Of a stretch of 32,706 nt of DNA, positions 7,685 to 14,347 are shown one piece after another. A program made the position numbers and the translations under genes. The notes below the pieces were generated by a model that ran no database searches, was not told the DNA's origin, and was given only the letters and a program-made list of their open reading frames with translations. The DNA lies in the NCBI GenBank assembly GCA_003601775.1, contig PIYN01000015.1, positions 1 through 32,706 on the forward strand, read 5' to 3'. Within the stretch, counting starts at the first letter, position 1. Every line of letters begins with the position of its first letter. Origin of the DNA: Candidatus Bathyarchaeota archaeon (GTDB taxonomy: Archaea > Thermoproteota > Bathyarchaeia > TCS64 > PIYN01).

Positions 7685-8836
7685 TCATCCGTCCCGCCTA
7701 AGGGGGTTTGCGGAGGTCTGAACCGGCGGGAGCGAGGGGGGAAGGGCGTCCCTGAGCTTCAGGACGGCCCTAAGGAAGTCCTTCGGGCTCATCCCGGGGA
7801 TCTGGGCCTCGCTCTCCTTGAAGAACCTCTTGATCCTCAACTCAAGGTCGTGGGGACGGGAGAGCATCGACCCCTTCAGGGCCTCCTCCAGGCGGAGCAC
7901 CGCCTCCTCTGGTATCATGAAGAAGTCGCCCGTTATCGAGGCGTCCAGGATCTTCCATCCCTTAACCTCGGCCCTCACCCTTATGAGCTTCGTTGCCTTG
8001 TGATCCGCCTCAACTATGTATCTGTCCCCCGCGATCTTCACCGCCCGCGTGCCCTCCTCCAGTCTCCTACCCCCTCGCATCTGGAGCCACTCCTTTGAGA
8101 GGTGCTTGGGCTTGACCTCCTCCCTCCAGATCCTCCACTCCTCCTCGCTGGGCTCGCTCCTCTGGAGATCGACGCCGAGGACATGCTCGAAGGCCTCTAC
8201 AAGCAGCTTCTTCACCTCCTCCACCTCGGGGATGTATCCCAGCTCCCTCTTCAAGGAGGTGACCCATTCCCTCATGCTCTTCGCCATCTTATCCCTGAAC
8301 TTCTCGCTCGGGACCCTCAGGACCCTGGACATGGAGTCGTAGTCGAGGTCGAGGATGATGTTCCCGACGAGGATCACGGCGGAGCCCATGACCCCCGCCC
8401 CGTTCCCAGAGATCTTCCTCCCCCTCACTACGACGTCGTTGATGGGCTTGAACTCCGCGGGGAGACCCAGCTTCCTGTAGACGTAGACGGGGGCCTCAAG
8501 GAGCTTCCTGAAGAGGTCCTCGACCCTCGCCGGGAGGACGCTGCTCCCCTTCCTCGCCACAACCTGGTAGAAGACCTGATCGCCGTTGAGGTACGTCGCA
8601 CCCCCACCCTGGGACCTCCTGATGATGGGGAGCCCCTTCTCGCGGCAGTACTCCACGTCGATCTCCCTCTCCAGCTCCTGGTGGAAGCCGAGGCATACGT
8701 AGGGGGAGGCGGGCTGGCAGAGGAGGATCGTGTCCGGTGAGAGGCCACGGTCGATGGCGAGGGCCACCGCTTCATAGAAGGTCTGGGCTATGAGGGGCTC
8801 GGCCCTGCCCAGGTCTATGAGGCGCCAGCTCTCCAT
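7685..8836 (-). CDS. lplA: Lipoate-protein ligase, LplA and LplB domains fused
   Basis: The 383-residue protein attaches lipoate to a lysine of a carrier protein using ATP. Residues 1 to about 250 are the LplA catalytic domain: VCLGFHQELEREIDVEYCREKGLPIIRRSQGGGATYLNGDQVFYQV with the RRXXGGGA signature, then NDVVVRGRKISGNGAGV with the conserved Lys. The C-terminal part (about 260-360) has VKIAGDRYIVEADHKATKLIRVRAEVKGWKILDASITGDFFMIPEEAVLRLEEAL, the pattern of the LplB accessory domain. In Thermoplasma LplA and LplB are separate proteins; the fused form is known from Lpl(AB) enzymes of lipoate-binding-protein/sHdr-type clusters. It starts at ATG 8836. The target is surely the H-like protein encoded 12 bases upstream. 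Confidence 0.88.
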   Translation of the reverse strand: MESWRLIDLGRAEPLIAQTFYEAVALAIDRGLSPDTILLCQPASPYVCLGFHQELEREIDVEYCREKGLPIIRRSQGGGATYLNGDQVFYQVVARKGSSVLPARVEDLFRKLLEAPVYVYRKLGLPAEFKPINDVVVRGRKISGNGAGVMGSAVILVGNIILDLDYDSMSRVLRVPSEKFRDKMAKSMREWVTSLKRELGYIPEVEEVKKLLVEAFEHVLGVDLQRSEPSEEEWRIWREEVKPKHLSKEWLQMRGGRRLEEGTRAVKIAGDRYIVEADHKATKLIRVRAEVKGWKILDASITGDFFMIPEEAVLRLEEALKGSMLSRPHDLELRIKRFFKESEAQIPGMSPKDFLRAVLKLRDALPPSLPPVQTSANPLRRDG

Positions 8837-8848
8837 CTCCCACGTCCT

Positions 8849-9286
8849 CTAACTCTCTATGCCGTACTTCTTCTTCTCCCTTGCGATCCACTCCTTCAGC
8901 GCTTCCTCGTCGGAGCCCTTGATGAGTGTCTTCAGCTCCTCCTCCAGGTTCAGGGGCTTCAGAACCGCGATCCATCCCCTCCCATAGGGGTCCTCGTTTA
9001 TCAGGGAGGGGTTCTTGAGGACCTCCCCGTTGAGCTCCAGGATCTCCCCGCTCAGAGGGGCCTTCAGCGGCCCCACCCATTTCCCGCTCTCCAGGGTCCC
9101 CAGGGTCTTCCCCTGCTTCACCTTGCTCCCGACCCTCCGTGTCCTCAGGAAGAGGATCTTCCCGGCAGCGCTCTGGGCCCAGTCGTTATAGCCGATCCGG
9201 GCCTTCCCGTCCTCAATCTTCACCCACATATGGTCCCTGTGGAAGTAGAGTTCCTCTGGGAACTCGTGTCCCTCTACACTCGTCAA
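8849..9286 (-). CDS. gcvH: GcvH-like lipoyl carrier protein
   Basis: The 145-residue product is a glycine cleavage H-like protein. The barrel core is clear: HRDHMWVKIEDGKARIGYNDWAQSAAGKILFLRTRRVGSKVKQGKTLGTLESGKWVGPLKAPLSGEILELNGEVLKNPSLINEDPYGRGWIAVLKP. The lysine in LESGKWVG is in the place of the lipoylated Lys (usual form ESVKAVS). The start is TTG 9286, chosen because GGAGGT stands 8 bases upstream, while the nearby ATG (9293) is out of frame. No glycine cleavage P or T protein is nearby; the neighbours are the ligase and SepCysS. It may be a true H protein or an LbpA-like sulfur/disulfide carrier; sequence alone does not decide. Confidence 0.85.
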   Translation of the reverse strand: MTSVEGHEFPEELYFHRDHMWVKIEDGKARIGYNDWAQSAAGKILFLRTRRVGSKVKQGKTLGTLESGKWVGPLKAPLSGEILELNGEVLKNPSLINEDPYGRGWIAVLKPLNLEEELKTLIKGSDEEALKEWIAREKKKYGIES

Positions 9287-9315
9287 TTCTCATACCTCCA
9301 GACTTATTATCTGGT

Positions 9316-9324
9316 AATTTATAG
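9316..9324 (-). promoter_or_regulatory. TATA box of the gcvH-lplA-pscS operon
   Basis: On the minus strand this reads CTATAAATT, about 30-38 bases before the TTG start of the H-like gene. The ribosome binding site GGAGGT (9300-9295) follows it. It is the best-looking promoter in the window for the three-gene operon. The next 100 bases (to about 9420) are A/T-rich and hold no gene that I can support. Confidence 0.5.
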
Positions 9325-9424
9325 TTAACTTGGAGTTTTCCTCATTAAATGTGGGATAGTTTTTATCCATTTTTAATTCCTCCATAGAAGGAGGGACGAA
9401 GACCTAAATAAATAAAACGGCGAG

Positions 9425-9462
9425 GAAGCCTATCCCCGCGTCTTCACGGAGTTGTAGGGGCT
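9425..9462. repeat. Possible relic of an IS200/IS605-type end
   Basis: The segment contains an imperfect inverted repeat (AGCCTATCCCC facing AGGGGCT) around a GCGTCTTCACGG loop. Its look resembles the structured ends of IS200/IS605 elements, which sit after tnpB genes. No tnpA or tnpB gene is present, so this is only a resemblance. It lies at the left border of the AT-richer island, where a mobile-element scar would be expected. Confidence 0.2.
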
Positions 9463-9463
9463 C

Positions 9464-9722
9464 CTAGCCCGCCTGCAGATGGGACAATAGGAGGGCCTCT
9501 CCACAGCCGTGCTTTAGGATGTGGTCATGAATGCTCTTCGTGCTCCTCCTCAGCATCTCGGCTATGCGCCCATGCTCAGTCCCTCCACCACGTAGAGCCT
9601 TACGATATCCCATGACACGTGCTATTGCACTTTGAGACATCTTTGGATTTTTTCCCATGAGAAGAGAGACTATCTTCCTATCAATCTCCTCTATTCAAGT
9701 ATTCTTCAAGGTTATCACGCAT
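9464..9722 (-). pseudogene. Small helix-turn-helix regulator, apparently frameshifted
   Basis: An open frame from ATG 9658 encodes 64 residues (KMSQSAIARVMGYRK, then GRIAEMLRRSTKSIHDHILKHG, which looks like a helix-turn-helix). The same frame reads sensibly further upstream as EEIDRKIVSLL with no start codon, and ends at a TGA. Another frame supplies ATG 9722 with MRDNLEEYLN. Skipping one base near 9692 joins the two into one 85-residue protein, with IDRKIVSLL-X-KNPKMSQSAIA resembling the start of Lrp-like HTH domains. So the gene is either broken by a one-base insertion, or a sequencing error hides an intact gene. It is divergent from the hydrogenase operon, 105 bases away, where a local regulator would sit. 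Family membership is uncertain. Confidence 0.45.
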
Positions 9723-9744
9723 ATCGAACTCTTTTCTATCCTTA

Positions 9745-9780
9745 ATTGTAAAAGTTTATGATCAAAAAAATTAAATAGAA
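9745..9780 (+). promoter_or_regulatory. Divergent promoter region of the hydrogenase operon
   Basis: This A/T-rich stretch lies between the broken HTH gene and the hydrogenase operon. On the plus strand it holds TATA-like AAGTTTAT and TTAAATAG; on the minus strand TTTTACAATTAAGG could serve the HTH gene. The first operon gene has a strong ribosome binding site (GGGGGGAG, 9810-9817), so a leader of about 25-45 bases is expected. Confidence 0.4.
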
Positions 9781-9826
9781 AAATCAAGGAGTGTTTAACT
9801 CTAAAATTAGGGGGGAGAGTGGACAG

Positions 9827-10300
9827 ATGAAAAATTTAAAGATGCAGAAGGTGCTAATATACGACCCTGACAAGTGCACTGGATGCAGATACTGTGAGAT
9901 CGCATGCGCCTATTACCACTTTAAGACTTTTAATTTTGAAAGAGCACATCTGCATGTAATATTTGATGAGGAAAAGCGTGCTTTCGAAGCGATCTATTGC
10001 CACCACTGCGATGAGCCGATATGCGCCGCCGCATGTCCAAGTGACGCGATAAGCAAGGATGAGGAAACCGGATGGGTAAGGATAAACCCCTCAGTATGTA
10101 TAGGATGCAAGACGTGCATAGTTGTCTGTCCCCTCTCAGCTCCATGGTTCAACGAGACCTTCCACGTCTCAATGAAATGTGACTTCTGTAATGGAGAACC
10201 GCAATGCGCAAGATTCTGCCCCCCACAGGCGATAAGGGTGGTAACCAGAGAGGAGGCATTAAAGTTTAGCGAAAAGAGATATTTGGAGGCTTCAACTTGA
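9827..10300 (+). CDS. Polyferredoxin with four [4Fe-4S] motifs (HycB/CooF-like)
   Basis: The 157-residue electron carrier resembles the HycB/CooF/DmsB ferredoxins that pass electrons to or from hydrogenases and molybdenum enzymes. Four cysteine groups are visible: CTGCRYCEIAC, CHHCDEPICAAAC, CIGCKTCIVVC and CDFCNGEPQCARFC, enough for four [4Fe-4S] clusters. ATG 9827 was chosen over an in-frame GTG at 9791 because GGGGGGAG stands about 10 bases before it. It is the first gene of the five-gene operon; its stop overlaps the TTG of the next gene (TTGA). Codons such as ATA, AGA and GCA are common, unlike the GC-rich flanking genes. It may replace the missing HdrC as partner of HdrB; that is inference. 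Confidence 0.88.
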   Translation: MKNLKMQKVLIYDPDKCTGCRYCEIACAYYHFKTFNFERAHLHVIFDEEKRAFEAIYCHHCDEPICAAACPSDAISKDEETGWVRINPSVCIGCKTCIVVCPLSAPWFNETFHVSMKCDFCNGEPQCARFCPPQAIRVVTREEALKFSEKRYLEAST

Positions 10301-10965
10301 GGGCGAAAAAAATAATCGAGTACATGCGGCAAGAGCTCGGTCCTGATGTACTCGTCGTCTCGGCTCCCCGTGATAGGCGAGTCTTCATAAATATAAGGGC
10401 TGAAGCACTTAGGAAAGCAGTTGAGGCATTAAAAAGGAAATATCCAGCACTGCGGTTCATGACTATCTCGACGGTGGATTGCGGATTACACTTTGAGTTT
10501 CTGCATCATTTTCACGTTGACGGAGTAGTCATCACTTTGAGAAGCGTGAAACCGAAAGAGGAGAATCTCCTAGAGTCGATTGCAGACATAGTTCCGGCGG
10601 CGAATTTCATAGAGAGGGAGATCGCTGAACTGTTCGGCATTAAGGTAATGAATCATCCTAAGATGCGAAGCCTCATATTAACTGAGGACTGGGCTGAAGA
10701 TAAGCGGCCTCTAAGAAAGCCTCTAAGAGGAATTCTTCCTCCACAAGCTAGGCGTGTGGCTGAATCCCTAATATCCATGGGCTGCGTAGCTCCTATTTCA
10801 AGGTTCATAGAGAGAAGGCGTGAAGCCGCTGGGCTTCCTAAAACTCCGCCTTTCGCATTCACAGATGAAGAGAACATGAAGGAGCTTCATGGAATCATTA
10901 AGGAAGTAAGCTTATCAGAGAAGGTTGGCTTCGACTGGGAAAAGAAGAGACTCCGATATAGGTGA
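10297..10965 (+). CDS. NuoC/HycE N-terminal-like hydrogenase subunit
   Basis: The 222-residue product is a 30-kDa/NuoC-family subunit, the part that in HycE and CooU/EchD caps the large subunit of group 4 hydrogenases and complex I. The signature is FIEREIAELFGIKVMNHPKMRSLILTEDWAEDKRPLRKPL (about residues 104-143), close to the NuoC consensus ERE...LFGI...HP.L..L.L...W...PLRK. The start is TTG 10297 within a TTGA overlap with the ferredoxin stop. About 80 residues follow the signature, with basic PPQARRVAESL and IERRREAAGLP, not expected in minimal NuoC proteins. It is separated from the large-subunit gene by hdrB, an unusual order. Confidence 0.87.
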   Translation: MRAKKIIEYMRQELGPDVLVVSAPRDRRVFINIRAEALRKAVEALKRKYPALRFMTISTVDCGLHFEFLHHFHVDGVVITLRSVKPKEENLLESIADIVPAANFIEREIAELFGIKVMNHPKMRSLILTEDWAEDKRPLRKPLRGILPPQARRVAESLISMGCVAPISRFIERRREAAGLPKTPPFAFTDEENMKELHGIIKEVSLSEKVGFDWEKKRLRYR

Positions 10966-10971
10966 AACTTC

Positions 10972-11844
10972 ATGGTTAAGTATGCTTTATTTCTTGGATG
11001 TCTGATTCCCATGCGTATGCCCAGCGTTGAGATAGCCTCTAGAAGAGTCTTCGAAAGGATAGGCTTAGAGAGTGTTGATCTTAAGGGATATACGTGCTGT
11101 CCCGAACCGGTGTTCTCCCGCCTAATTGATGAGACTGGGCAACTTGTGATTTCAGCTAGGAATCTCGCATTGGCTGAGGAACTAGGATTGGACATTATGA
11201 CTCTCTGTAATGGGTGCTACGAGACTCTTCTCGAGACAAATGAGACTCTGAAGAATAAATCTGATGAGATGCTGCGGGTCAACAGGATATTGGAGAATTA
11301 TGGAAAGAAGTATAGGGGTCTAATCAAAGTTAAGCATGCTATAGAGGTGTTATATGAGGATATCGGAATCGAGAAGATTAGGGAATGCGTGACTAAGCCC
11401 TTAAAGATCCGTGTTGCAATGCATTATGGTTGCCACCTTTACCGAGACCTCAGCGGAGATATCATGCGGAAGCCGAGGATGATGAAGGAAATTACGAGCT
11501 TAACGGGCGTTGAGATAGCTGATTATGGGCTTGAACGTTTATGCTGCGGGTATCCAAGCATGCAGGTTGATGAGGAATTCTCTCTTACACATAGGCTTCT
11601 GCCGAAGATAAAGAGAATGGTAGAGGCGGGGGCAGAGGCAGTTGTCTTAACATGCCCTGCATGTACGATCCAGTTTGAAACAGGGCAGGTTCTGCTTAGG
11701 AAGCGTGGAATCCAGTATGAGATCCCATGCATAAATATTATGGAGTTGCTTGCTCTATCCTTCGGTTTTTCCTCGAGAGACATACACTTAGAGCTCCATA
11801 GAGGACCGATTTTGCGGCTGATTAAGAAAGTGGAGGGTGATTGA
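10972..11844 (+). CDS. hdrB: HdrB-type heterodisulfide reductase subunit (two CCG domains)
   Basis: The 290-residue protein is an HdrB homologue. HdrB reduces CoM-S-S-CoB or related disulfides at two noncubane [4Fe-4S] clusters, each bound by a CCG domain. All ten cysteines are present: Cys10, Cys42-Cys43, Cys79 and Cys82 (LGCLIP, YTCCPEP, LCNGC), then Cys154, Cys191-Cys192, Cys228 and Cys231 (YGCHLYR, RLCCGYP, TCPAC). The spacing follows the HdrB pattern, so the catalytic site should be intact. It starts at ATG 10972 behind AGGTGAA. It lies inside a hydrogenase operon, between the NuoC-like and large subunit genes. HdrA and HdrC are absent from the window. The real substrate disulfide is unknown. 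Confidence 0.92.
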   Translation: MVKYALFLGCLIPMRMPSVEIASRRVFERIGLESVDLKGYTCCPEPVFSRLIDETGQLVISARNLALAEELGLDIMTLCNGCYETLLETNETLKNKSDEMLRVNRILENYGKKYRGLIKVKHAIEVLYEDIGIEKIRECVTKPLKIRVAMHYGCHLYRDLSGDIMRKPRMMKEITSLTGVEIADYGLERLCCGYPSMQVDEEFSLTHRLLPKIKRMVEAGAEAVVLTCPACTIQFETGQVLLRKRGIQYEIPCINIMELLALSFGFSSRDIHLELHRGPILRLIKKVEGD

Positions 11845-11847
11845 TAC

Positions 11848-12969
11848 TTGCCAAGAATAGTTTGCATCGGACCTTACAAGCCTCAGCTTCTCGAGCCTGA
11901 ACGCTTCCAGCTCTTCGTGGAGAACGATAAGATAATCGACGTGAATATTGAACTTGGCTATGTGCATCGGGGAGTAGAGGATCTGTTCACGAAGAGAACA
12001 TACATGCAGAATCTGGCGCTCGCGGAGCGAATATGCGGGATCTGCTCCGGCGTTCATACTCTCTGCTATGCCCAAACTGCTGAAAGTATAATGGATGTGG
12101 AGGTTCCAGATAGAGCTCGGTACCTGCGTTGCATATACATGGAGCTCGAGCGTCTGCACAGCCATTTTTTATGGTTCGGTGTTCTAGCCCATACTCTTCA
12201 CGAGCATAAAGTCTTCCTGAAGGTAATGACTGAGAGAGAACGTATTCAAGCTCTGCTTGAGTATCTAACAGGAAACAGAATACACTATCTCATTAACACG
12301 GTGGGTGGAGTTAGAAGAGATATAACGCCAAAGAAGGCTGAGAGAATACGAGACGTCCTTAAGGATATGAAGGATCTGTCAAATTATCTATTAATGCTTC
12401 TGAACAATGATGGAGTTTTTGTGGAGAAAACTGAGGGAGTAGGCGTACTTTCAAGGAGCATAGCTCTAGATGTAGGCGCCGTCGGCCCAACGCTAAGGGG
12501 CTCGGGTGTGAAGAGCGACATACGCAGGGATGATTCATACGCAGCATATGGGGAGATAGACTTCGAAATAACCACGGAGGATGAAGGCGACGTTTTAGCT
12601 AGAACCCGCGTTAGGGCTAGGGAAACACTTGAAAGTATAAGAATAATTGAGCAGTCGCTTCAGAACCTTCCTGAAGGAGAGATCTCCGTTAAGCCCGGAG
12701 AACCCCTCGAGAAGGAGGAGATCGGAAGGGCGGAGGCCCCGCGTGGAGAACTCATCTATTACATTCGATCTAATGGCACGAATATTCCAGAAAGAGTTAA
12801 GATCAGAACTCCATCCTTCGCGAACGTCTTCGCATTAACCGAGATGCTACGCGGAGACAACATTCAGAACGCTAGGCTGATAATCGAGAGCATCGATCCC
12901 TGCTTCGCCTGTACGGACCGTATCACAATCATCGATAGGAATACTGGCAGGAGGCAAATTTGGGGTTGA
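11848..12969 (+). CDS. [NiFe]-hydrogenase large subunit, group 4 (HycE/EchE-like)
   Basis: The 373-residue protein is the catalytic subunit that splits or makes H2. Both nickel-binding motifs are complete: L1, ERICGICSGVH with Cys63 and Cys66, and L2, DPCFACTDR with Cys352 and Cys355. The pair separates it from NuoD of complex I, which lacks these cysteines. The L2 form DPCXXCTDR is that of HycE, EchE and CooH, so it belongs to group 4. The segment YMELERLHSHFLWFGVLAH is typical of the family. Only 18 residues follow L2. The start is TTG 11848 after GGAGGGTGA. It lacks the N-terminal NuoC part of HycE, which is a separate gene here. Confidence 0.93.
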   Translation: MPRIVCIGPYKPQLLEPERFQLFVENDKIIDVNIELGYVHRGVEDLFTKRTYMQNLALAERICGICSGVHTLCYAQTAESIMDVEVPDRARYLRCIYMELERLHSHFLWFGVLAHTLHEHKVFLKVMTERERIQALLEYLTGNRIHYLINTVGGVRRDITPKKAERIRDVLKDMKDLSNYLLMLLNNDGVFVEKTEGVGVLSRSIALDVGAVGPTLRGSGVKSDIRRDDSYAAYGEIDFEITTEDEGDVLARTRVRARETLESIRIIEQSLQNLPEGEISVKPGEPLEKEEIGRAEAPRGELIYYIRSNGTNIPERVKIRTPSFANVFALTEMLRGDNIQNARLIIESIDPCFACTDRITIIDRNTGRRQIWG

Positions 12970-12970
12970 T

Positions 12971-13876
12971 GTGAAAATGGCTGAAACGAAGATTGCTGTT
13001 TACCGTTTCATGTCAGCCGGATGTAACGGATGCGACGTACAGATACTTGAATGCCTTGTTCCACGATATAAGCTTGGAGAACTAGGCATCGAAGTGGTCT
13101 TCACGCCTGAAGAGGCGAATGTTCTGGCCGTTACTGGAAGCTTAAACATCAAGGGAGCTGAGGAGCTGAAGAAGGCTTACGAGAAGCTTAAACCTCCAAG
13201 AATCGTTGTCGCCATTGGAAACTGCGCAACTACAAGAGGTATCTTTAGCGAGGGATACCCGATAGTCGGTCCTCCAGACCGCTTAATCCCAGTGAGCCTT
13301 TACATTCCAGGCTGCCCACCTCGTCCCCAAGCAATAGTATCAGCGATAGCAAAAGTTCTAGGAGCACATTTAGACGAGGAAGAGGATTATTGGAAGGCTC
13401 CAGAGGGTTTCAGGGGCAGACATGAATTTGATGTGGAAAAATGTATGGCTTGCGGTGCATGTGCACAGGTCTGTAGTTCAGATGCAATTGAAGTGAGCGA
13501 TAGTGATGGGAAACGTTTAATAAGGATTAATTATGCACGATGCACTTTCTGCGGATTCTGCCAAGACGAGTGTCCAACGCAGGCTATAAGGCTGACGAGG
13601 GAGTATCACCTCTCAACGGATGATAAGGAGACAGCATATGTAACGAATGAAGTGGAGATGCTTAGGTGCCACATCTGCGGATCGTATTATGTTCCTTCAG
13701 AGCAGATAAAATGGGCCATCGGTCGTATAATGGATAAAGTCGCCGCGTATAGGGATCTGCGTAAGAGACTAGAAGATGCCATGCAGATCTGTCCTACGTG
13801 CCGCAGAAAGATAGGCAATATAGAAAATGCGAAGAGACTTCTTGCCAACCTCACAATTAAGACCCGAAAATCTTAA
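12971..13876 (+). CDS. [NiFe]-hydrogenase small subunit fused to HycF-like ferredoxin
   Basis: The 301-residue protein joins two subunits normally encoded apart. Residues 1 to about 135 are the small subunit (HycG/NuoB type) holding the proximal cluster: SAGCNGCDVQ (Cys18, Cys21), GNCATTRG and PGCPPRP. From about 145 to 215 follow two [4Fe-4S] motifs, CMACGACAQVC and CTFCGFCQDEC, as in HycF/EchF/NuoI. The tail has two CXXC pairs (RCHICGSYYVPSEQIKWAIGRIM and ICPTCRRKIG), as in the C-terminus of HycF/HyfH. The start may be GTG 12971 or ATG 12977. It is the last gene of the operon and ends 6 bases before an opposite-strand gene, so no membrane subunit follows. Confidence 0.92.
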   Translation: MKMAETKIAVYRFMSAGCNGCDVQILECLVPRYKLGELGIEVVFTPEEANVLAVTGSLNIKGAEELKKAYEKLKPPRIVVAIGNCATTRGIFSEGYPIVGPPDRLIPVSLYIPGCPPRPQAIVSAIAKVLGAHLDEEEDYWKAPEGFRGRHEFDVEKCMACGACAQVCSSDAIEVSDSDGKRLIRINYARCTFCGFCQDECPTQAIRLTREYHLSTDDKETAYVTNEVEMLRCHICGSYYVPSEQIKWAIGRIMDKVAAYRDLRKRLEDAMQICPTCRRKIGNIENAKRLLANLTIKTRKS

Positions 13877-13882
13877 GATATG

Positions 13883-14104
13883 TTATAGTGGCTCATCCTC
13901 CCTAAGGCCTCTGTGAGCTTCGTTCCACTCTCTCAGGGCGAGGACCTTCCCCAGATACCAGTAGCCCTCCTCCCTCAGCTCCCTCCTCGTCGGCAGCGTC
14001 GGGTTCTCCTCATGGCTTCGGTGGAAGTCCTCGGCCCAGAGCTGATAGGCGATCTCCCAGGCCCTCTCCCGGATAGCAGGCCAGAACCTACCCCTCCTCG
14101 GCAT
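13883..14104 (-). CDS. Small hypothetical protein, 73 aa
   Basis: The product is rich in Arg, Glu and Trp (MPRRGRFWPAIRERAWEIAYQLWAEDFHRSHEE...EEGYWYLGKVLALREWNEAHRGLRED) and likely helical and soluble. ATG 14104 was chosen because AAGGAGGCGGGG lies 5-16 bases upstream; an upstream extension of 18 residues is possible but less likely. I recognise no family. The codon use is GC-rich, like the main genome and unlike the hydrogenase island that stops 6 bases from its stop codon; it therefore marks the right border of the island. Confidence 0.6.
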   Translation of the reverse strand: MPRRGRFWPAIRERAWEIAYQLWAEDFHRSHEENPTLPTRRELREEGYWYLGKVLALREWNEAHRGLREDEPL

Positions 14105-14347
14105 TCTTCCCCGCCTCCTTGCTAAAAACCCTTGCTGAAATAAAGAATATAGTTGCAATAACGGCGGAACATATACTATAGATCCATTGGTATGTGATTC
14201 AATGCCGAGGGTGAAGGTAAGAAACTTCGCAAGCTTGCGCTAGTTATTTGGTTATTCTCCTTCACTCCTTTAAAAAATATCCCCAACTGAAGCCGCCGGA
14301 TAAGTTAATTAGAGTGTTTCAACTCATAAAGGGGGGAGGGGTCTGGG
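14105..14347. other. A/T-rich intergenic region before aIF5B
   Basis: The region is richer in A/T than the genes on its right. It holds the short MoaD-like fragment (14202-14243) with a TATA-like ATATACTATA (14171-14180), a 12-bp palindrome CGCAAGCTTGCG (14228-14239) inside that fragment, a likely aIF5B promoter (ATAAGTTAATTAG near 14300) and its ribosome binding site (AAGGGGGGAGGGG, 14328-14340). I see no tRNA or other RNA gene. Confidence 0.45.
14202..14243 (+). pseudogene. MoaD/ThiS-like gene fragment (first 13 codons)
   Basis: The ATG at 14202 opens MPRVKVRNFASLR followed by TAG. This looks like the beginning of archaeal MoaD-family ubiquitin-like proteins (SAMPs), which often start with VKVRFFASLRE. 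No later part of such a protein, and no C-terminal GG, is found in any frame before aIF5B. TATA-like ATATACTATA about 27 bases upstream suggests an intact promoter. The likeliest reading is the stump of a deleted gene at the island border. With only 13 residues, chance resemblance is possible. Confidence 0.3.

Follow-up and report, generated by a model that had tools for sequence, protein, structure and literature searches.

Group 4 [NiFe]-hydrogenases are generally viewed as energy converters of the membrane. One of those linked to HdrB is Drh, which was reportedly described by Lyu and Lu in 2015 (cited in PMC6046458 and PMC9723716). Drh of Methanocella is a "disulfide-reducing hydrogenase" and putatively membrane-associated (PMC6046458). 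Kohtz et al. (PMC9723716) place Ehd, Ehe, Drh and Ehg together as hydrogenases that interact with HdrB, frame them as membrane-associated and mention Bathyarchaeia sequences in an Ehd-like cluster. In addition, Bathyarchaeia have Hfo, an Fpo-like hydrogenase of 11 subunits (PMC7886697). HdrB-linked group 4 hydrogenases are therefore already known as membrane complexes, and a form lacking NuoH seems undescribed in the literature that we searched, whose coverage was incomplete. Here we report on such a form, encoded by five genes at positions 9827-13876 of a stretch of 32,706 nucleotides (the window), which is contig PIYN01000015.1 of a Candidatus Bathyarchaeota archaeon (assembly GCA_003601775.1). 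The source genome is a metagenome-assembled genome (MAG) of the class Bathyarchaeia, 1.53 Mb in size and 92.7% complete. The original prediction, made from the letters of the window, knew of no described enzyme of this make-up; the view that there is none is not supported, since Drh, Ehd, Ehe and Ehg too are HdrB-linked group 4 hydrogenases.

The five open reading frames (ORFs) lie head to tail on the forward strand, with intergenic gaps of -4, +6, +3 and +1 bases, and domain calls made independently by Pfam and NCBIfam agree with the tightly packed genes proposed originally. They encode a four-cluster [4Fe-4S] ferredoxin of the HycB/AorA-polyferredoxin type (FD, 157 residues, 9827-10300; a GTG start at 9791 is possible, and the ATG at 9827 agrees with the length in relatives), a NuoC subunit with an apparently HdrC-derived C-terminal extension (10297-10965; Complex1_30kDa, E = 2e-20), HdrB with two CCG domains (10972-11844), a group 4 [NiFe]-hydrogenase large subunit (11848-12969; Complex1_49kDa and NiFeSe_Hases), and a small subunit in which a NuoB/HycG-like domain is fused to a NuoI/HycF-like two-cluster ferredoxin domain (12971-13876). 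No membrane gene is found among the five, and no transmembrane segments were predicted in any of their products. The order ferredoxin-NuoC-HdrB-large subunit-fused small subunit, for which a search had been proposed with the original prediction, was found again in about 20 Bathyarchaeota genomes, and the arrangement is therefore not due to chance. We hold with high confidence that the operon is present, conserved and membrane-free.

Among 257 Bathyarchaeia genomes, 20 have a large subunit with at least 55% identity to that of the window; after a gap, the next ones are at 50% or lower. The large subunit of one further genome (G214; locus, genome and contig labels are ours) is at 49% identity yet belongs to the same fused, NuoH-less layout, which brings the carriers to 21. 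The gene order was seen in Bathyarchaeota loci among L005-L019 and L052, where some of the contigs are cut, and in L020, L093 and G214. In the large-subunit tree, the 20 NuoH-less members form one clade with support of 100/99. It stands apart from the membrane-bound HdrB-linked enzymes, which fall into two groups, and from the group of membrane-bound hydrogenase (MBH) and formate hydrogenlyase (FHL). As was first proposed, the large subunit belongs with the group 4 enzymes: it is nested with MBH, FHL and the HdrB-linked membrane enzymes in this tree, which covered part of the HydDB subgroups 4a-4i and no Drh. All HdrB-linked large subunits, again with no Drh sequence included, may share one origin, as their union in one clade was not rejected by an approximately unbiased (AU) test (p = 0.39).

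In other Bathyarchaeia and Thermoproteota, HdrB-linked loci of a related kind have the order FD-NuoC-HdrB-large subunit-NuoH-NuoI-NuoB, and several carry an antiporter gene. The NuoH gene, which in these membrane-bound relatives stands between the large and small subunit genes, is missing from the operon, and NuoB and NuoI, which are split genes in the relatives, are fused. The source genome has a single NuoH, which is part of another hydrogenase, Fpo-like and encoded on contig C17 (locus L054, 6567-17658). This hydrogenase carries its own NuoB, C, D and I and its own nickel-binding large subunit (motifs CGIC and DPCLCC) and matches the Hfo of PMC7886697. Furthermore, no NuoH gene was found in 6 of the 21 carrier genomes, three of which (G172, G175 and G186) are 92, 97 and 94% complete. 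Membrane subunits encoded elsewhere, named as a possible refutation with the original prediction, were looked for in these genomes; the outcome did not refute it, and the description of a group 4-type enzyme built on HdrB without a membrane subunit stands. Of the 52 NuoB positions that membrane-bound group 4 enzymes conserve, the domain has lost 21 in this clade and none in any of four control clades. The lost positions include the N-terminal SPW and the DxERFG motif, which, judging by complex I structures, presumably face NuoH.

To describe the cofactor sites, we counted ligands over the clade members covering each protein (20 for HdrB, 20 for the large subunit, 17 for FD and 19 for the small subunit). 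HdrB matches the profile TIGR03288 (E = 4e-76, 256 bits) and the PDB chain 5odc_B (E = 3e-69), and its closest solved relatives are true HdrB proteins of HdrABC. All ten cysteines of the noncubane clusters (Cys 10, 42, 43, 79, 82, 154, 191, 192, 228 and 231), first noted in the window, are present in 20 of 20 members. Together with the kinship to true HdrB this favors disulfide chemistry, and catalytic disulfide reduction by HdrB is predicted from these ten residues. The NuoD-like large subunit has MbhL (6cfw_L, 262 bits) and HycE (7z0s_E, 241 bits) as its nearest solved relatives. Both of its CxxC nickel motifs, which had also been recognized at the outset, are kept in 20/20: CGIC (L1; C63 and C66; 12034-12045) and CFAC within DPCFACTDR (L2; C352 and C355; 12901-12912). 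The short tail after the L2 motif resembles that of HycI-cleaved large subunits, and a HycI gene adjoins the operon in several relatives. The best PDB matches of FD include the aldehyde oxidoreductase polyferredoxin (8c0z_C) and, further among them, HycB (7z0s_B); its 16 cysteines are invariant in 17 of 17 members, and FD would be the electron link from the small subunit to HdrB. The small subunit consists of Oxidored_q6 (residues 18-128), Fer4 (154-221) and HycF-like PRK12387 (144-287) regions, and its 16 cysteines (4 proximal, 8 Fer4 and 4 C-terminal) are invariant in all 19. The ratio of nonsynonymous to synonymous substitution rates (dN/dS) of the operon was 0.09-0.15 against its closest relative, which indicates purifying selection.

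The subunit first called NuoC-like does have a NuoC domain, and the name is incomplete. Residues of about 144-222 (10726-10962) match the C-terminal third of HdrC, so that HdrC is not wholly absent but has its C-terminal part fused to NuoC. The match was obtained with the TIGR03290 HdrC model of NCBIfam (E = 9.7e-6), with residues 115-183 of HdrC in the PDB (5odc_C; E = 1.6e-6) and in an hhalign profile comparison (probability 95.7). The tail is present in every HdrB-linked NuoC examined and missing from the ordinary, Hfo-type NuoC examined; in Ehe-type loci it is a stand-alone ORF of about 95-100 residues. PMC9723716 names an HdrC among the Ehd/Ehe genes, which may be this tail protein. In the AlphaFold2 (AF2) monomer model, the NuoC domain had mostly a predicted local distance difference test (pLDDT) score of 77-94 and MbhK (6cfw_K) as its top fold match, and the leading matches listed in the fold search were all of the NuoC type. 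Since domains of this type have a key part in determining how complexes assemble in E. coli (PMC7050243), we consider the HdrC-derived tail a likely adapter that seats HdrB, and the four-cluster ferredoxin would then stand in for the cluster-bearing half of HdrC.

The operon lies in a low-GC island (9290-14300, edges approximate), with a G+C content of 46.6% in the operon and of 60% in the flanks, and 4.1 kb match the low-GC Bathyarchaeota contigs L005/L006 at 85-86% DNA identity. Upstream, on the reverse strand, there is a degraded remnant of a divergent Lrp/AsnC-type regulator gene (9608-9745; tblastn match of 63% over 46 residues, with an in-frame stop), which has a 78% DNA match to L005/L006; a gene of this type flanks the operon in the closest relatives. 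We read the operon as a recent horizontal acquisition. A chimeric assembly is less likely, because it would need two joins.

The best explanation, which we consider probable, is that the operon encodes a soluble, non-bifurcating, reversible H2:disulfide oxidoreductase. We infer, as the original prediction did, a coupling between H2 and a disulfide: the five proteins would form a complex in which electrons pass in either direction between the [NiFe] large subunit, the proximal and two Fer4 clusters of the small subunit, the four-cluster ferredoxin, and HdrB, seated via the HdrC-derived tail of NuoC. The two noncubane [4Fe-4S] clusters of HdrB would act on a disulfide, either of a small molecule or of a protein, by reducing it or forming it again. 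In layout the enzyme would resemble a formate hydrogenlyase in which HdrB has taken over from formate dehydrogenase. Its ancestors were probably HdrB-linked group 4 hydrogenases of the membrane-bound kind, from which it arose when NuoH was lost and NuoB and NuoI were fused, and it would therefore neither pump ions nor bifurcate. H2 uptake with disulfide reduction would be the favored direction, and the reverse is conceivable when H2 is low and the dithiol has a low potential. Several points weigh against this explanation. H2 uptake by the enzyme alone would conserve no energy, and HdrB-like proteins serve other reductases too. The AF2 monomer gave the HdrC-like tail low confidence (block means of about 46-71), and the genomes compared are MAGs. 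In addition, the large subunit has lost 6 of 71 conserved positions, compared with 0-6 in the control clades, which is no excess; we therefore rejected residue loss in the large subunit as proof of a lost membrane interface and used only the NuoB evidence.

Alternatively, the five proteins could form a membrane complex after all by borrowing the NuoH and antiporter subunits of the C17 hydrogenase. In favor of this, a full Fpo-like membrane arm is encoded in the genome, together with a Ni-binding large subunit of its own, and the sister HdrB-linked complexes are membrane-bound; however, the C17 complex is already supplied with NuoB, C, D and I, the NuoB interface signature is lost from the clade of the operon, and the carrier genomes without NuoH led us to reject this explanation, which we regard as very unlikely. 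Another possibility is that HdrB serves to dock some other partner, such as HdrABC, a flavin adenine dinucleotide (FAD) dehydrogenase or a ferredoxin, or to take in electrons from it, and that the enzyme mainly evolves H2 as a hydrogenase linked to a ferredoxin or a dehydrogenase. Family matches place other HdrB/CCG proteins in quite different reductases, hdr genes adjoin several of the operons, and PMC9723716 has Ehe loci with Sdh/Cdh-like genes. The retention of all ten noncubane ligands throughout the clade and the relationship to the HdrB of HdrABC argue against such a role, and we consider it unlikely. It is also conceivable that the acquired operon is an inert passenger with no function in its host, given that the low-GC island is recent, the regulator gene is degraded and HycI was left behind in the transfer. 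Five intact frames, the conservation of every ligand and the low dN/dS against the closest relative make this extremely improbable.

For the soluble H2:disulfide oxidoreductase that we favor, the disulfide itself has to be considered. The N-domain of MCR alpha was undetected in 21 of 21 carriers, and two methanogen controls gave a signal. The heterodisulfide of coenzymes M and B (CoM-S-S-CoB) derived from MCR, whose reduction was envisaged in the original prediction, is therefore an unlikely substrate. The source genome has five HdrABC-like loci, and extra hdr genes adjoin the operon in L008, L014-L016, L019 and L052; this suggests a common disulfide pool, and the disulfide is probably shared with the several HdrABC complexes of the cell. 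A different candidate is encoded beside the operon (7685-9286, reverse strand), namely the lipoyl group of a GcvH-like protein (8849-9286), which would be lipoylated by the adjoining LplA-type ligase (7685-8836), as suggested for Ehe and as for LbpA in sHdr systems (PMC6067878). This GcvH is a second, divergent copy, the other being on contig C22, and it keeps the lipoyl lysine in the site ESGKWVGP. Outside Bathyarchaeia, GcvH genes lie repeatedly beside membrane-bound HdrB-linked hydrogenases, in L143 (with LplA), L146, L148, L149, L038/L150 and L153, and the adjacency, which recurs in Ehe-type loci, is noted for Ehe of Culexarchaeia in PMC9723716. On the other hand, close orthologues of the window GcvH, often beside LplA, occur across the whole order in genomes without the operon, the gene is on the high-GC native side of the acquired island, and no such gene adjoins the other membrane-free operons examined. 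GcvH and LplA are not inherited together with the operon, as a dedicated pair of the sHdr/LbpA type would be. The two genes are native and their adjacency to the later-inserted operon is probably coincidental, and we demoted the lipoyl group to a rival explanation, a quite unlikely one for the source genome. Two arguments for it were rejected: lipoamide dehydrogenase is not missing from this genome, which has an ordinary one, and the GcvH-like genes of L009 (7378-8082), L017 (10847-11440) and L018 (5884-6477) encode fusions of an apparent ribbon-helix-helix-type N-terminus to a GcvH-like domain in which the lipoyl lysine is replaced by methionine. These fusions are perhaps sensors or regulators. 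Because of the recurrent adjacency, lipoyl-GcvH is a better candidate substrate at those loci outside Bathyarchaeia than in the window.

Put in full, our proposal is that Bathyarchaeia which are not methanogens have an H2:disulfide oxidoreductase of the cytosol, not coupled to energy conservation, in which a complex I-like cytoplasmic arm is freed from its membrane arm, an HdrC fragment on NuoC seats HdrB, and a thiol-disulfide couple other than CoM/CoB links H2 to the HdrABC network; we give this complete version about an even chance of being correct. A selected and transferred form without a membrane arm would mean that the hydrogenase arm can exist by itself once a different electron partner is provided, and the NuoC-HdrC graft is a candidate for the way in which enzymes of the complex I type exchange partners. 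The operon also offers a testable handle on what the many heterodisulfide reductases of Bathyarchaeia act on without MCR, and presumably without CoM-S-S-CoB, and on how H2 enters or leaves their metabolism.

Compared with known systems, the operon resembles Drh in having [NiFe]-hydrogenase genes with HdrB, no antiporter and a proposed coupling of H2 to disulfide reduction; Drh, which we compared by its description, differs in being putatively membrane-associated and in its methanogen host with MCR. The Ehd and Ehd-like loci of Methanomethylicia, Culexarchaeia and Bathyarchaeia, named after PMC9723716 and assigned here by architecture, share the FD-NuoC(HdrC tail)-HdrB-large subunit order and a related large subunit. 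Unlike the operon, they have NuoH between the genes of the large and the small subunit, NuoI and NuoB unfused, and often an antiporter, and their NuoB keeps the SPW/DxERFG signature that is lost in the clade of the operon. One genome has two different HdrB-linked hydrogenase operons arranged divergently, one with an antiporter and one without (L085, 153-12600). The Ehe of Culexarchaeia (PMC9723716; L038), to which L146 and L148-L150 were assigned by architecture, likewise has FD, an HdrC-tail protein, HdrB and a group 4 core, with HdrABC and GcvH nearby, whereas its large subunit is longer (about 545 residues, with NuoC apparently fused to it), its HdrC tail is a separate ORF, and NuoH and an antiporter are present. 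Hfo, too, has a large subunit of group 4 in which both nickel motifs are present, and differs in its complete membrane arm, its lack of HdrB and its NuoC without an HdrC tail. The formate hydrogenlyase (Hyc) of E. coli has the same HycB-like ferredoxin, HycG, HycF and HycE modules, but carries formate dehydrogenase in the place of HdrB and the membrane subunits HycC and HycD. HdrABC-MvhADG likewise combines HdrB with a [NiFe]-hydrogenase, with flavin bifurcation by HdrA, a group 3c hydrogenase and a complete HdrC; the operon holds neither hdrA nor mvhA, and the genome has no third [NiFe] large subunit, although HdrABC sets are found elsewhere in it. In L019 (2904-14886; L154 is the same region), one cluster holds HdrA, the HdrB hydrogenase of the membrane-free form and a set MvhD-HdrC-HdrB-MvhG-MvhA, so that two hydrogenase types are adjacent. 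Overall, the operon departs from the NuoH-based membrane attachment usual for group 4 and for the HdrB-linked kind, and it agrees with Drh, Ehd and Ehe in encoding HdrB inside a hydrogenase operon with a four-cluster ferredoxin.

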